Shown here: one piece after another, positions 29,862-37,284 of the stretch | How the letters are laid out: each line of letters opens with the position of its first letter | Numbering within the stretch: position 1 is the first letter of the stretch | The notes under the pieces: model-generated | What the model was told of the DNA's origin: nothing | Databases searched by the model: none | What the model saw: only the letters and a program-made list of their open reading frames with translations | Made by a program: the position numbers and the translations under genes | NCBI RefSeq assembly: GCF_014930455.1 | Contig: NZ_JAAIYO010000001.1 | Coordinates: forward strand, 1,364,001-1,428,000 | Length of the DNA stretch: 64,000 nucleotides | Origin: Corallococcus soli | Lineage (GTDB): Bacteria; Myxococcota; Myxococcia; Myxococcales; Myxococcaceae | Reading direction: 5' to 3'

Positions 29862-31262
29862 ATGACAGCTTTGGCAGCGGTGGTCCTGTGCGCGGGCAAG
29901 GGCACGCGGATGAAGTCGGAGAAGGCGAAGGTCCTTCACCCCATCCTCGGTCGTCCCATCTGCGCCTATCCCTTGAAGCGGGCCCTGGAGCTGGGCGCCA
30001 CGTCCGTGGTGCCGGTGGTGGGACATCAGGCCGCGGAGGTGGAGAAGTCCATCCGCGCCCACTTCCCGGACGCGCCCCTGCGCTTCGCGCTCCAGAAGGA
30101 GCAGCGCGGCACGGCGGACGCGGTGAAGGCCGCCCAGGACGCGCTGAAGGGCCACGACGGCCGCGTGCTCATCCTCTACGGAGACGTGCCGCTGCTGCGC
30201 AAGGAGACGCTCCAGGCGCTCCTGTCCGCGCATGACGCCGCGGGCGGGGTGCTGGCCATGGTGTCCACCACCCTGGAGGACCCGACGGGCTACGGCCGCG
30301 TCATCCGCGAGGGCGGCAAGGTGTCCCGCATCGTGGAGCACAAGGACTGCACCCCGGAGCAGCGCGCGGTGAAGGAGTGCAACGCGGGCATCTACTCCGT
30401 GGACGCGGCCTTCCTGTGGAAGGCGCTCGCGGAGATCAAGCCCGTCAACGCGCAGGGCGAGTACTACCTCACCGACCTGGTGGAGATGGCCGCGCGCCAG
30501 GGCCCCGTGGGCGCGGTGGACGCGGACGCCACGGAGACCGCGGGCGTGAACGACAAGGTGGAGCTGGCGGCGCGCGCCCGCGTCCTCCAGCAGCGCATCA
30601 ACGAAGCCCACATGCGCGCGGGCGTGTCCATCCAGGACCCGGCCACCGCGTACATCGAAGAGGGCATCACCATTGGCACCGACACGGAGATTGGCCCCAG
30701 CGTCACGCTCGCGGGCGGCACCGTCGTCGGCAAGAACGTCATCATCGGCCAGGGCAGCGTGCTGACGGCCTCCCACGTGGAGGATGGCACGCACATCAAG
30801 CCCTACTCGGTGCTGGAGGAGGCGCGGGTGGGCGGCCGGTGCGTCATTGGCCCGTTCTCCCGGCTGCGGCCCGGCACCGAGTTGGCAGAGGACGTGCATC
30901 TGGGGAACTTCGTGGAGACGAAGAAGGCCCGCATTGGCAAGGGCAGCAAGGCCAACCACCTGACTTATCTGGGGGACGCGAACATTGGCGCGGGCTGCAA
31001 CATCGGCGCGGGCACCATCACCTGTAACTATGACGGGGTGAACAAGCACCTGACGGAGCTGGGCGATGGGGTCTTCATCGGCTCTGACTCGCAGCTCGTC
31101 GCGCCGGTGAAGGTGGGGGACGGCGGGTATGTCGGCGCGGGCACCACGGTGACGAAGAATGTGCCTCCGGGGAGCCTCGCTGTGTCCCGTGCGCCGCAGG
31201 TGGTGAAGGAGGGTTGGGTGGCGGGCAAGAAGGCGCGGCAGGCGAAGGTGAAGGCAGGCTGA
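29862..31262 (+). CDS. glmU: Bifunctional GlmU: N-acetylglucosamine-1-phosphate uridyltransferase / glucosamine-1-phosphate acetyltransferase
   Basis: 466 residues. The N-terminal pyrophosphorylase domain has [19 protein letters not shown] (an L-x-A-G-x-G-T-R-M signature) and the usual Lys. From about residue 255 a left-handed beta helix of hexapeptide repeats ([20 protein letters not shown]) forms the acetyltransferase. It makes UDP-GlcNAc for peptidoglycan and LPS. TTGACG at 29823-29828 with a weak -10 would start transcription almost at the ATG, and no ribosome-binding site is visible, so a leaderless mRNA is possible. glmS follows after about 100 bp. Confidence 0.96.
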
Positions 31263-31365
31263 GTCCTGACGCCTGCCTGGTGGTCGGACGGTAGGGCGTG
31301 GTTGGGCGTGACAAGGTTTCCCGTGGTTTGCTCTGGCGGGCGCGGGTCGAGAAAGAGGCAGGAAC

Positions 31366-33201
<1,836 letters not shown>

Positions 33202-33306: not shown

Positions 33307-33642
33307 TCAGGGGGCGTCTTCCGCCAGCTCCAGCAGGACTTCCAGGTCCGCCGCCGCGTCCAGCGACTCCAGCAGCTCCAGGTTGTCCACCACCTCGCGG
33401 TCCTCGTCGGTGAGCACTGGCTCCTGGCGGCGCGCGTCGGTGGGGGCGGGGCGCGCCTGGCCGGTGGGCGCGGGCTCCTCGCGGCGCGCATCGGTGGTGC
33501 TGGTGCGAGCCTCCGTTCCGGTGCTCGCGGGCCCGTCGCGGCGGATGTCGGTGGTGGCGGGCTGCTCCGGAACTCTCTGCGCCCAGGCGGGCAGGGCGCC
33601 CGCGAGCGCGAACAGCAGCAGCCACCGGGGGGCGAGCGTCAC
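33307..33642 (-). CDS. Small secreted acidic protein, last gene of ECF operon
   Basis: 111 residues. Sec signal (LLLFALAGALPAWA), then an Arg/Pro/Thr-rich low-complexity region with repeats (TDIRRDGPA, TDARREEPA, TDARRQEPV). The C-terminal 40 residues are an acidic leucine-rich stretch: REVVDNLELLESLDAAADLE. The same NLEL-x-E type segment appears at the C-terminus of the anti-sigma factor two genes upstream. The start overlaps the DUF3106-like gene (ATGA). Probably periplasmic. I know no function; the shared motif suggests that it competes for, or joins, the same interaction as the anti-sigma tail. Confidence 0.72.
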   Translation of the reverse strand: MTLAPRWLLLFALAGALPAWAQRVPEQPATTDIRRDGPASTGTEARTSTTDARREEPAPTGQARPAPTDARRQEPVLTDEDREVVDNLELLESLDAAADLEVLLELAEDAP

Positions 33643-34142
33643 TTGCGCCGCCTTTCGCGCAGCCGCTCGCGAGCCTCCTGCCGCTCCTCGGCGGACATCT
33701 GCCGCCAGCGGCGCAGGTTCTCCATGATCTGCTCGCGCCGCTCCGGGTGTTCCTTCAGGTAGGCGCGCATCCGCTGGCGCAGCTCCGCGCGGCGCTCCGC
33801 GGACTGGCCGCGCAGGTCGCGCACGTGTTCGCGCACCGCCTGTCGCTCCTTGGGCGACAGGCGCCGGAATTCGCGCAGGTTGGTGCGCAGCCGCTCCCGC
33901 TCCTCGGGTGGGAGCTGCCGCCAGCGCCGGAGGTTCTCGCGCACGCGCGCCTGCTCCTTGGGCGGCATCGCCTTGAACTCACGCAGCTTCGCGCGCAGGG
34001 CTTCCTTCTGCTCCGGCGGGAGCTGCTCGAAGCGCTCCGCGGCCGTGGGCGTCGGGGCGTTCGCCGCGCGGGCCGCCGTGGCCGGCAGCAGGGCCAGCGT
34101 CACCGCCACGGCCAGGGCCGCCAGGGTCGTTCTTCCCACCAT
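33639..34142 (-). CDS. DUF3106-like periplasmic protein with seven 18-residue repeats
   Basis: 167 residues. A signal peptide (TLAALAVAVTLALLPATAARA) is followed by a short linker. From residue 42 to the last residue there are seven consecutive 18-residue repeats, with no gap; the third reads PPEERERLRTNLREFRRL. The pattern is P/S-P-x-E/K-E-R-x-x-L-R-x-N-L-R-x-x-R-x, a charged, Arg-rich helix each. This fits DUF3106-type proteins that accompany sigma/anti-sigma pairs and resembles CpxP/Spy-like helical envelope proteins. ATG 34142 overlaps the anti-sigma stop. It is probably a periplasmic sensor or chaperone that tunes the anti-sigma factor. Confidence 0.82.
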   Translation of the reverse strand: MVGRTTLAALAVAVTLALLPATAARAANAPTPTAAERFEQLPPEQKEALRAKLREFKAMPPKEQARVRENLRRWRQLPPEERERLRTNLREFRRLSPKERQAVREHVRDLRGQSAERRAELRQRMRAYLKEHPERREQIMENLRRWRQMSAEERQEARERLRERRRK

Positions 34143-34621
34143 CACGGCGTCCCCAGTTCGTGGAGGTTCTCGACGACCTCCAGGTCGTCGGAGCTGTCGA
34201 GCCCCAGCACTTCGTAGTCCTCGACCAGCTCCAGGTTCGTCGCCACCTCGAACGCGCCCGCGTCCAGTTCGTCCAGCGCCGCGGGCTCCACGCCGCCCCT
34301 CCCCATCACGAGCAGCGCCAGCACCGCCGCGGCGGCCACGCCCAGCGAAGGCACCAGCAGGCCTGGCCGCAGGAGCGCCGCCAGCCGTTCGCGCCAGGTG
34401 GGCGGCAGGGCGTCCAGCCTCGCCAGCACGTCGCGGCGCGCGGAGGGGGAGGGCGTGAAGGCGGGCAGCCGCGCCATCCTCGCGACGGTGACGCGCAGCA
34501 GCCGCTCCGTCCCCTGGCAGGCCGCGCAGGTGCCCAGGTGGGCCTCCACGCGGGCGCGGTGCGGGGGCGGCAGCTCCCCGTCCACGTAGGCCGTCAGGTC
34601 TTCTTCGTACGCACAGCTCAT
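34142..34621 (-). CDS. Anti-sigma factor, zinc-finger (ZAS/zf-HC2) type, single-pass membrane protein
   Basis: 159 residues. The N-terminal anti-sigma domain holds His28-x3-Cys32-x2-Cys35 (EAHLGTCAACQ), the ZAS motif that binds zinc and ECF sigma factors. One transmembrane helix lies at about 94-112 (LVPSLGVAAAAVLALLVMG). The periplasmic tail is acidic and leucine-rich (NLELVEDYEVLGLDSSDDLE), repeated in similar form and matching the C-terminus of the operon's last gene. Overlaps the sigma gene (ATGA) and the downstream gene. It holds the cognate sigma factor inactive until an envelope signal, likely sensed through the downstream proteins. Confidence 0.9.
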   Translation of the reverse strand: MSCAYEEDLTAYVDGELPPPHRARVEAHLGTCAACQGTERLLRVTVARMARLPAFTPSPSARRDVLARLDALPPTWRERLAALLRPGLLVPSLGVAAAAVLALLVMGRGGVEPAALDELDAGAFEVATNLELVEDYEVLGLDSSDDLEVVENLHELGTP

Positions 34622-35232
34622 GCCCGACTCCTCGCGGGCACGGTGCCCGCCTGCAACGCTTCAATCCTGCGCGCCACCGCCAGGGTGGCCCGGTGGATGA
34701 GGCTCTTCACGGCCGCCTCGCTGGCCTCCAGCGCCTCCGCGATGTCCCGGTACGCCATGCCCTCGAAGCGGCACATGGTGAAGGCCGCGCGCTCGCGGTC
34801 GCTCAGGTCCCCCAGCGCCACGCCCACGGCCGCCTCCAGCTCCCGGCCACTCAGCGCCTGGTCAGGCCGGTCTCCGTCGGGCCCGGGCACTTCCACCGCC
34901 CCCGCCGCGTCTTCGTCCGCGTCCGTGTCCGGGGCCTTCACGAGGGAGCGCGCCACGCGGTACTCCCCGCGCCGCATCTCATTGAGGCAGTGGTTGGTGG
35001 CCACCCGGAAGAGGAACGTCTTGAACTTCGCCGTCGGCTTGTAGGCGCGCGCGTGGCGGTAGAGCTTCACGAAGATGTCCTGGGTCAGCTCCTCCGCGCG
35101 CGCCGGGTCGCCCACGAAGCGGAACGCGAAGCGGGCCACGCTCGCGTGGTGACGGTCGAAGAGCCAGGCGAAGGCCTGCTTGTCGCCCGCGGCCACCTTC
35201 AGCAGCGCCTGCGTGTCCGGGTCCCATTCCAT
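34618..35232 (-). CDS. ECF-type RNA polymerase sigma factor
   Basis: 204 residues. Region 2 is ARFAFRFVGDPARAEELTQD then IFVKLYRHARAYKP and FKTFLFRVATNHCLNEMRR; region 4 is LSDRERAAFTMCRFEGMAYR then DIAEALEASEAAVKSLIHRA. The linker (DADEDAAGAVEVPGPDGD) is acidic and longer than usual. Regions 1 and 3 are missing, as in group IV (ECF) sigma factors. First gene of a four-gene, fully overlapping operon with its anti-sigma factor, a DUF3106-like protein and a secreted acidic protein. Probably autoregulated; I could not identify a secure -35/-10 pair. Confidence 0.94.
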   Translation of the reverse strand: MEWDPDTQALLKVAAGDKQAFAWLFDRHHASVARFAFRFVGDPARAEELTQDIFVKLYRHARAYKPTAKFKTFLFRVATNHCLNEMRRGEYRVARSLVKAPDTDADEDAAGAVEVPGPDGDRPDQALSGRELEAAVGVALGDLSDRERAAFTMCRFEGMAYRDIAEALEASEAAVKSLIHRATLAVARRIEALQAGTVPARSRA

Positions 35233-35321
35233 CCGTCAGGCATCAACCCCGTTGCCCGGTGGAAGTTGCGGGCGTCTCCACTTTGAACCCCGAGGGCCGC
35301 CCCGGTTACAGTTTCGCCACC

Positions 35322-36086
35322 TTGAGTGACGCCTCCCGCCCACGTCCGCGCACATCCTCCTCCGCCGTTGAAGGCGGGGAGGGGGCCCCGTCGGACCTGG
35401 CGGCCTGGGAGCCCGAACCTTCGGCCCAGGGCGGCACGCCCACCCCGCCGCTGGGCTCGCCGCTGCCCATGCTCCTGCTGGCGCAGCAGGCCCGGCGGGC
35501 CTCCGGGGCGGAGCGGCTGCGGCTGGCGGCGCAGCTCAACGAGCTGCTGGCGGACCTGGCCGCGGAGGGCGGGGGGCGGGTGGAGGCGGACGCCTTCCAC
35601 CGGCTGCTGGAGGGCGGCACCCTGGAGGGGCTGGTGGACGCCGACGGGCGCACCTGCCGCGCCGCGGCGGTGGAGTCGCTGCTGGCGCTGGGCTTCCCCT
35701 ATGCCCTGGAGGTGCGCCCGGAGGACCTGGAGCACCTGCGGAGCACGCCGGTCCTGGGCACCCAACTGTCGCCGCCCCGGGGCGGGCCCTTCCCGGCGCT
35801 GGCGGTGGGCCTGGGGGCGCTGGCGGCCCAGGTGCTGCTGCACGCGACGGGGCTCGTCCCGCCTGGCGGGTTGCTCATCCTCCAGGGGCTCCTGACCCTG
35901 GTCTCCCTGGCGCTGCTGACGGTTGCCTCGGTGGGCTCCGCCCTGTATCGCGGAGCCCTGGCGCTGCTCACCGTGGTGTCCGGGCTGGGGTTGGGGATGT
36001 TGCTGGTGCCGGACGTCCCGGCCGGTTGGGCAGCGGGGCTGGGGGGGCTGGTGGCCGCCTTCCTGGCCGCCCTGCGCAAGAGCTGA
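35322..36086 (+). CDS. Membrane-anchored protein of unknown function
   Basis: About 254 residues from TTG 35322; a GTG at 35259 is possible but the codons between are not clearly coding. The N-terminal half is soluble and helical ([20 protein letters not shown] then [13 protein letters not shown]). The C-terminal ~90 residues have three or four hydrophobic helices ([73 protein letters not shown]). Lies between the divergent ECF sigma gene and recA. No recognised motif. It may be regulated by the neighbouring sigma factor, but no promoter element proves it. Confidence 0.65.
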
Positions 36087-36142
36087 CCGGCAGAACCCAA
36101 AACGGATGTCAGAGGGGTGGACTAGGGTCTACCCATCGCGTA

Positions 36143-36159
36143 CTAAAAGCGCGTTCAGG
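36143..36159 (+). promoter_or_regulatory. LexA box upstream of recA
   Basis: CTAAAAGCGCGTTCAGG matches every position of CTRHAMRYBYGTTCAGS, the Myxococcus LexA-binding motif as I remember it. It begins 56 bp before the recA ATG and overlaps a possible -10 (TACTAA, 36141-36146), whose -35 would be TGGACT (36118-36123) at 17-bp spacing. LexA binding there would block the promoter. Confidence 0.75.
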
Positions 36160-36198
36160 TGGGCCGGGGTGGCCCACTCTTCCAAGGAGCGACGAGAA

Positions 36199-37284
36199 AT
36201 GGCCGTGAATCAGGAGAAGGAAAAGGCGATCGAGTTGGCGCTGGCCGCGGTGGAGCGCCAGTTCGGCAAGGGTTCCATCATGCGGCTCGGCAACGACGAG
36301 CCGATGATGAAGGACATCCAGGCCATTTCGACGGGCTCCATCTCGCTCGACATCGCGCTGGGCGTGGGCGGCGTGCCGCGAGGGCGCATCATCGAAATCT
36401 TCGGGCCGGAGTCCTCCGGCAAGACGACGCTCTGCTTGCACATCGTCGCGGAGGCGCAGAAGCGCGGCGGCGTGTGCGGCTACATCGACGCGGAGCACGC
36501 GATGGACGTGGGCTACGCGCGCAAGCTGGGCGTGCGCACGGACGACCTGCTCCTGTCCCAGCCGGACACCGGTGAGCAGGGCCTGGAGATCGCGGAGATG
36601 CTGGTGCGCTCGGGCGCCATCGACGTGCTGGTGGTGGACTCGGTGGCCGCGCTCGTGCCGAAGGCGGAGCTCGAAGGCGAGATGGGCGATGCGCACATGG
36701 GCGTGCAGGCGCGCCTCATGAGCCAGGCGCTGCGCAAGCTCACGGGCACCATCTCCAAGAGCCAGACGTGCGTCATCTTCATCAACCAGATCCGCATGAA
36801 GATTGGCGTGATGTTCGGCAACCCGGAGACCACCACGGGCGGCAACGCGCTGAAGTTCTACGCGTCGCAGCGCATGGACATCCGCCGCGTGGGCGCCATC
36901 AAGAACGGCGAGAGCGTGGTGGGCAGCCGCACCCGCGTGAAGGTCGTGAAGAACAAGGTCGCGCCCCCGTTCAAGGAAGTCGAGTTCGACATCATGTACG
37001 GCACGGGCATCTCCCGTGAGGGCGACCTCATCGACCTCGCCTCCAACGAGAACATCGTGGAGAAGAGCGGCAGCTGGTTCTCCTTCAAGGGAGAGCGCAT
37101 CGGCCAGGGCCGGGAGAACGCGAAGGAGTACCTGCGCGAGCACCCGGAGACCCAGAAGGAGATCGAAACCCTGGTGCTGGAGAAGTACGGCATCGGCAAG
37201 GCGGCTCCTGGCGCGCCCGCCGCGGATGCCCCCGCGGAGCCCGCGGAAGGGGAGAAGCGTCCCCGCGTGAAGGCCGTGAAGTAG
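36199..37284 (+). CDS. recA: Recombinase RecA
   Basis: 361 residues. Walker A GPESSGKT at 69-76, [20 protein letters not shown] (Walker B and L1), and the L2 segment ending [17 protein letters not shown]. RecA forms filaments on single-stranded DNA for recombination and stimulates LexA self-cleavage. The C-terminus has an Ala/Pro/Glu tail ([20 protein letters not shown]) longer than the E. coli form. ATG 36199 has AAGGAGCGACGAG upstream; the longer open frame from 35923 lies inside the previous gene region and is not coding. LexA box directly upstream. Myxococcus carries two recA genes; which one this is cannot be fixed without alignment. Confidence 0.97.

Follow-up and report, generated by a model that had tools for sequence, protein, structure and literature searches.

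An ECF sigma factor operon of Corallococcus soli encodes a putatively secreted small protein that carries the acidic motif of the anti-sigma tail

INTRODUCTION

How might the release of an ECF sigma factor be controlled when its own operon encodes both a membrane-bound anti-sigma factor and a second, putatively secreted protein that ends in a segment resembling the anti-sigma tail? This question is raised by four genes in a window of 64,000 nucleotides from Corallococcus soli (contig NZ_JAAIYO010000001.1, positions 1,364,001 to 1,428,000), in which a basic protein of the DUF3106 family is encoded between the two acidic segments. The initial annotation of this DNA proposed a charge-based periplasmic complex in which the secreted protein competes with the anti-sigma tail for the basic protein. 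In Pfam, DUF3106 is listed as a protein of unknown function, and literature searches on DUF3106, on PF11304 and on DUF3106 together with sigma factors found no paper.

RESULTS

Organization of the operon

The operon lies on the minus strand and comprises four genes with overlapping ends, which run from an ECF sigma factor through a zf-HC2 anti-sigma factor and a DUF3106 protein to a small protein (Table 1). It is flanked by glmU-/glmS-like genes and a plus-strand recA-like gene (29862–33201; 35923–37284), identified by eye. The sigma factor exceeds the Pfam cut-offs in both region 2 (64.4 bits; cut-off 24) and region 4 (52.4 bits; cut-off 25.7), and among the best 25 of 104 NCBIfam rows only the general sigma-70 ECF family TIGR02937 is over its cut-off. 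The anti-sigma protein, whose named relative among the matches listed is from Corallococcus llansteffanensis (91% identity), combines a zf-HC2 domain (45.8 bits; cut-off 22.2) with one strong hydrophobic stretch at residues 88–106 and a C-terminal tail of residues ~108–159. It therefore has the make-up of a zf-HC2 membrane anti-sigma factor, a domain above the cut-off followed by a membrane stretch (by hydropathy), and gene order suggests that it would inhibit its cognate sigma factor.

The DUF3106 protein (78.5 bits against a PF11304 cut-off of 24.3) starts either at GTG 34145 or at ATG 34142 and overlaps the anti-sigma stop codon, and the GTG start of the small protein in turn overlaps the DUF3106 stop codon. 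The small protein consists of a signal-peptide-like start, a linker with three short repeats and a C-terminal acidic motif. Its best Pfam match has an E of 0.37, none of its matches exceeds the cut-off, and at E up to 1 NCBIfam gives nothing. The linker repeats (33409–33555) are imperfect and of the TDARRxEPxxT type; one unit of this type also occurs within the 75 residues displayed of the tails of loci L018 and L022. By hydropathy alone, both DUF3106 and the small protein have hydrophobic N-terminal stretches. Together with the hydrophobic stretch of the anti-sigma factor, these predict that the anti-sigma tail, DUF3106 and the small protein should all be located in the periplasm.

Table 1. 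Features of the ECF sigma factor operon and its upstream region (positions within the window).
Feature	Position	Strand	Basis
ECF sigma factor, 204 aa (P0004)	34618..35232	(-)	Sigma70_r2 8.3e-18, Sigma70_r4_2 4e-14
zf-HC2 anti-sigma factor, 159 aa (P0001)	34142..34621	(-)	zf-HC2 6.5e-12; hydropathy
Anti-sigma tail past the hydrophobic stretch, with acidic motif	34145..34300	(-)	Translation, motif statistics
DUF3106 protein (P0002), signal-peptide-like start and basic 18-residue repeats	33639..34145	(-)	PF11304 6e-22
Small, putatively secreted protein, 111 aa (P0003)	33307..33642	(-)	Translation; secretion from signal-peptide-like start
C-terminal acidic motif of the small protein	33310..33411	(-)	Motif profile of homologues
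Candidate ECF-type promoter, GCAACTT-N8-CAACGGGGTT	35245..35269	(-)	Exact match; adjoins sigma gene upstream

An acidic motif occurs in both the anti-sigma tail and the small protein

Both segments quoted by the initial annotation are present on the minus strand: NLELVEDYEVLGLDSSDDLE occupies anti-sigma residues 129–148 (34178–34237), and VVDNLELLESLDAAADLE occupies residues 84–101 of the last protein (33340–33393), with residues counted by hand. The NLEL(L/V)E core that the two were said to share is real in both proteins; the description of the likeness by this core alone was too narrow, as it extends over ~30 residues. In a local alignment of the window's pair, none of 200 composition shuffles reached the observed score (z 4.3).

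Profile comparison strengthens this observation. When the tails and small proteins of 51 of the 67 paired homologues were compared profile against profile (the other 16 pairs were excluded by hand, as their tails contain additional residues that displace the motif), the two families matched with a probability of 91.2 and a score of 29.4. This score was reached by none of 300 column shuffles and by none of 300 shuffles that preserved the hydrophobic/polar pattern (maximum 25.6), and reversed profiles scored 11.7 and 11.4. The paired homologues are related to each other; what these shuffles test is solely how alike the two protein families are. Alignments of single loci are weaker: in 32 of the 67 loci none of 200 shuffles attained the score, with a median z of 3.5, and in the remaining 35 at least one did (worst, L069 with 77 of 200). 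Among 15 representatives of 10 numbered families, own pairs stood above all 300 shuffles in nine. A core pattern, composed post hoc with the sequences already known, matches 76 of the 92 anti-sigma tails; among the small proteins it matches 53 of the 67. Over 200 rounds of shuffling the maxima were 5 and 4, respectively.

Among the 15 representatives, own tail/small-protein pairs did not score significantly higher than mismatched pairs (mean z 4.4 and 4.0, respectively; permutation p 0.12). The motif thus behaves as a module common to the two proteins, and nothing points to co-adaptation of the pairs. Taken together, these comparisons confirm the acidic motif in the anti-sigma tail and in the small protein as a genuine and conserved feature.

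The two acidic segments and DUF3106 are oppositely charged

The opposition of charge on which the proposed complex was based was borne out wherever it was measured. In the window, the last 45 residues carry a net charge of –14 in the anti-sigma tail and –12 in the small protein, and the last 141 residues of DUF3106 carry +17. Across the loci collected from Myxococcota (see below), DUF3106 is net positive in 98 of 98 (+4 to +36), and the anti-sigma tails are net negative in 92 of 92 (–17 to –3), as are all 67 small proteins that lie directly downstream (–17 to –2). The mean net charges of the two acidic segments are –11.5 and –10.0.

Predicted structure of DUF3106

The AlphaFold model of DUF3106, calculated from 85 sequences (pLDDT 90.7, pTM 0.53), consists of a short first helix followed by seven helices of 15–16 residues that recur with a period of 18 and are parted by turns of two or three residues. 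In this model the helices are predicted securely, but not their mutual packing. In the alignment, the distant homologue L099 has a gap of exactly 18 residues. Given the helix repeats and this missing unit, several binding sites on DUF3106 are plausible. Searches for a known fold returned nothing convincing (Foldseek, best E 4.6; VIA-align, 12 chains, best Z 3.0), and comparison of the DUF3106 profile with solved structures gave weak matches to helical proteins, the best being amyloid-like protein 1 (E 2.2e-4).

In five genomes of family f2, DUF3106 and the small protein lie in one reading frame, separated by a single stop codon. One of these loci, L058, was used as a docking model by reading this stop as Gly (231 residues, 70 aligned sequences). 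An earlier alignment for this read-through model was dropped as it placed lone small proteins onto the N-terminal repeats. The resulting model has a pLDDT of 89.5 and a pTM of 0.55, compared with 0.53 for the window's DUF3106 alone. In it the motif falls within a helix at residues 189–220, with a pLDDT of ~80 that declines to 64 at the end, and no contacts were reported; only five of the aligned sequences reach the small protein, and the signal peptide in the linker is a confounder.

The motif protein is conserved across Myxococcota in changing gene order

DUF3106 was detected in at least 84 of the 145 genomes of the order and in 99 of the 195 genomes of the phylum set, which includes the order's 84. 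Loci were collected around DUF3106 matches, leaving out a weak match in G175, four duplicates (L001, L011, L088 and L089) and L086, which has no DUF3106 by profile. The final set contains 98 loci, two of them from one genome (G032). Profile and position identify an anti-sigma factor in 92 of these loci, and in 67 a small protein immediately follows DUF3106.

Loss of the motif in homologues had been set as a refutation test; the motif survives in both proteins across the phylum. With the window's own locus excluded, a motif protein is found near DUF3106 in 88 of 97 loci. The profile used here was built from the tails of the 67 directly downstream small proteins and ten typed peptides, so that training loci match by construction: 76 of the 88 positive loci had trained it and 12 had not, namely ten f3 loci, L092 and L101; an earlier small-protein profile had already touched some of these 12. 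The motif protein directly follows DUF3106 in 68 of the 97 loci, lies past one intervening gene in 10, between the anti-sigma gene and DUF3106 in 5 and upstream of the sigma gene in 5, and is absent from 9. Among the motif-negative loci, the sequence ends within 217 bases past DUF3106 in L048, L049, L053 and L060, and little sequence is available on one side in L025, L091 and L098; L096 and L100 have no motif protein despite ample sequence on both sides. Its occurrence in four gene arrangements argues against hitch-hiking in one fixed order and points to a component that is kept while its place changes.

In the loci displayed of the ten in f3, the motif protein ends ~1.8–1.9 kb past DUF3106, and the gap fits one gene of ~540 codons with a signal-peptide-like start (L036:3344–4972, L062:3331–4911); neither of these two genes matches a Pfam family at E up to 1, and a search with the L036 gene found no relative in the window's genome. 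In L093, L094, L095, L097 and L099, loci of distant families, the motif-protein gene is located between the anti-sigma gene and DUF3106, a placement that would fit an origin of the motif protein by duplication of the anti-sigma 3' end. In L032 (G065), the part of the small protein preceding the motif is unlike that of its relatives and the frame offset to DUF3106 differs, with the motif intact, which reflects either a frameshift or an assembly error.

The motif is specific within genomes of the family

In the 96 genomes of the family, a whole-genome motif profile (26 rows, the window's small protein among them) matched 60 genomes at E < 1e-3, once each; no second match fell below E 0.03, the next anywhere being 0.033. 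The window's small protein scored 4.6e-9, and the only other match in its genome 0.345. Of the 59 genomes with DUF3106, 58 have a motif match. An anti-sigma match that extends to residue 156 or further occurs in the same genomes as DUF3106, at least 59 of the 96 when the genome lists are compared; both searches scored some of the first-look candidates, which leaves any single absence uncertain.

The discordant genomes can be described individually. In G060 and G066, which have a motif protein without a DUF3106 match, the motif lies at the start of a contig (G060:C401:78–161 and G066:C388:22–105); with the matches confined to the first 161 and 105 bases, a break in the assembly is probable there, and both assemblies probably lack the DUF3106 gene. 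G138 has the anti-sigma factor without DUF3106, and its anti-sigma match stops 151 bases short of the contig end. G124 gave no motif match in the genome search, and its locus (L069) has a related tail. In G102 the motif match is on another, short contig. No DUF3106 match was found on plasmids at E 1e-3.

In the window's genome, at least 22 zf-HC2 matches were obtained from the 150 of 242 first-look candidates scored; among the 21 parsed, 7 of which have C-termini outside the fetched stretch, a simple pattern for the motif occurs in one, the anti-sigma factor of the operon. A genome search with the anti-sigma tail alone matched only the tail itself, and missed the small protein because the first look gave one candidate.

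A candidate promoter upstream of the sigma gene

The element GCAACTT-N8-CAACGGGGTT is found upstream of the sigma gene, with at most 4 mismatches in 17 positions, in 43 of 58 same-family loci and 2 of 24 loci of other families, and in none of 82 shuffled upstream regions (one shuffle each) at the same threshold. The copy in the window looks like an autoregulatory ECF promoter. In the whole genome, the strict pattern has one exact copy, its own site, and one copy with two mismatches, which does not indicate a wide regulon, although a looser promoter would escape such a search. A shorter pattern, GCAACTT-N13-GGGTT, has two genome sites compared with one for the control, and we claim no regulon from either pattern. 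The second site of the shorter pattern is L131 (G000:C16:174802–174826).

DISCUSSION

The best explanation of this cassette is envelope signalling around an ECF sigma factor. In the mechanism that we propose, the anti-sigma factor would retain the sigma factor in the cytoplasm and display its acidic leucine tail in the periplasm, where the basic helical-repeat protein DUF3106 would serve as the receptor for the tail. The small protein, carrying the same motif behind a flexible linker, would then be a soluble second ligand of DUF3106 and would most likely compete with the tail, giving a threshold or a feedback of sigma release. The occurrence of one motif in two proteins encoded by the same cassette, alongside a basic partner, is most simply accounted for by a shared binding site on that partner, and on these sequence features DUF3106 as the receptor, with competition by the small protein, appears to us nearly as probable as not. 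We infer the binding of both motifs to DUF3106, their competition and any effect on sigma, as well as export and membrane topology. The wider proposal, namely that the operon makes a secreted mimic of its own anti-sigma tail, that DUF3106 is a helical-repeat receptor reading both, and that this periplasmic titration switch has been kept across Myxococcota while the surrounding gene order was shuffled, is put forward more tentatively.

Other arrangements of the same parts would also give rise to a shared motif. The tail and the small protein may sit side by side on one DUF3106, with the small protein acting as a co-sensor or scaffold; the predicted array of seven similar helices and the homologue that is shorter by exactly one 18-residue period would suit such a bridge, which we consider rather unlikely. 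The small protein might instead bind the anti-sigma tail directly through leucine packing and leave DUF3106 to another target, such as an anionic envelope polymer. The likeness of the two motifs is compatible with this arrangement, and DUF3106, being basic, could bind anionic polymers, but both segments are strongly acidic and their pairing would be repulsive without a counter-ion, so that direct pairing is unlikely.

Regulated proteolysis is a frequent means of release for anti-sigma factors that have periplasmic tails, which lends some appeal to the idea that a periplasmic protease recognizes the motif, with the small protein as a decoy or sensor substrate and DUF3106 shielding the site on the tail. 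Pseudomonas MucE would be a precedent: according to excerpts of PMC3819740, the AlgW protease becomes activated through this small envelope protein. The f2 loci have residues beyond the motif, unlike a C-terminal PDZ ligand, and we regard a protease site as distinctly improbable. Least probable of all, and by some way doubtful in our judgment, is that the two segments are alike merely as acidic amphipathic helices with no common partner. Biased composition speaks for such a likeness, and in 35 of the 67 loci some shuffles attain the single-sequence score; against it, none of the 300 shuffles with the hydrophobic pattern preserved attains the profile score, reversed profiles fall short of it as well, and in the 96 genomes a second match to the small-protein motif never falls below E 0.03.

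With competition for DUF3106 as the favored reading, the family gains a concrete candidate role as a receptor for anti-sigma tails, and the cassette suggests an unusual control of sigma release through a secreted decoy that copies the anti-sigma tail. Furthermore, the short motif may be used to find an extra partner of such sigma systems in other genomes.

The cassette can be likened to RseB/MucB, CnrX and MucE by function only, as the sequence features of these systems that were searched for here were absent or below the cut-off. With RpoE/RseA/RseB and AlgU/MucA/MucB it has in common an ECF sigma factor, a membrane anti-sigma factor and a putative periplasmic protein acting on the anti-sigma factor; in E. 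coli K-12, rpoE, rseA, rseB and rseC are adjacent. As a guess by analogy, DUF3106 bound to the tail might protect the anti-sigma factor, as RseB and MucB do. Lipid signals antagonize MucA–MucB binding, as stated in excerpts of PMC7400510. No RseB-type Pfam domain was present among the 25 matches of the DUF3106 protein or the 2 matches of the small protein at E up to 1. Unlike RseB and MucB, DUF3106 is a predicted 18-residue helix repeat, and a putatively secreted protein with the tail motif is added here.

In the metal-sensing CnrH/CnrY/CnrX system, a helical periplasmic sensor acts on a membrane anti-sigma factor, and the pairing of a helical periplasmic protein with a membrane anti-sigma factor recalls the present cassette. 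DUF3106 was considered as a metal sensor of the CnrX type and rejected as a member of that family, as Metal_resist (PF13801) scored 18.3 bits, below its cut-off of 29.2. No conserved set of His or Cys was seen in the 12 DUF3106 sequences displayed, and no chain of the CnrX/Metal_resist fold was among the Foldseek or VIA-align results given above.

MucE offers a further comparison, being a small envelope protein tied to a sigma factor system. In excerpts of PMC3819740, MucE leads to sigma release and its expression depends on the same sigma factor, and in excerpts of PMC8545111 the PDZ domain of AlgW binds the MucE C-terminus. By comparison with MucE as these excerpts describe it, the small protein has a motif that is like the anti-sigma tail and may stand short of the protein's very end: in the five f2 read-through loci, residues follow the motif, where a MucE-like signal would lie at the extreme C-terminus. 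Judged by its sequences, the cassette is of a known kind, comprising an ECF sigma factor, a membrane anti-sigma factor and a putative periplasmic regulator, and its new element is a putatively secreted protein that bears the motif of the anti-sigma tail.
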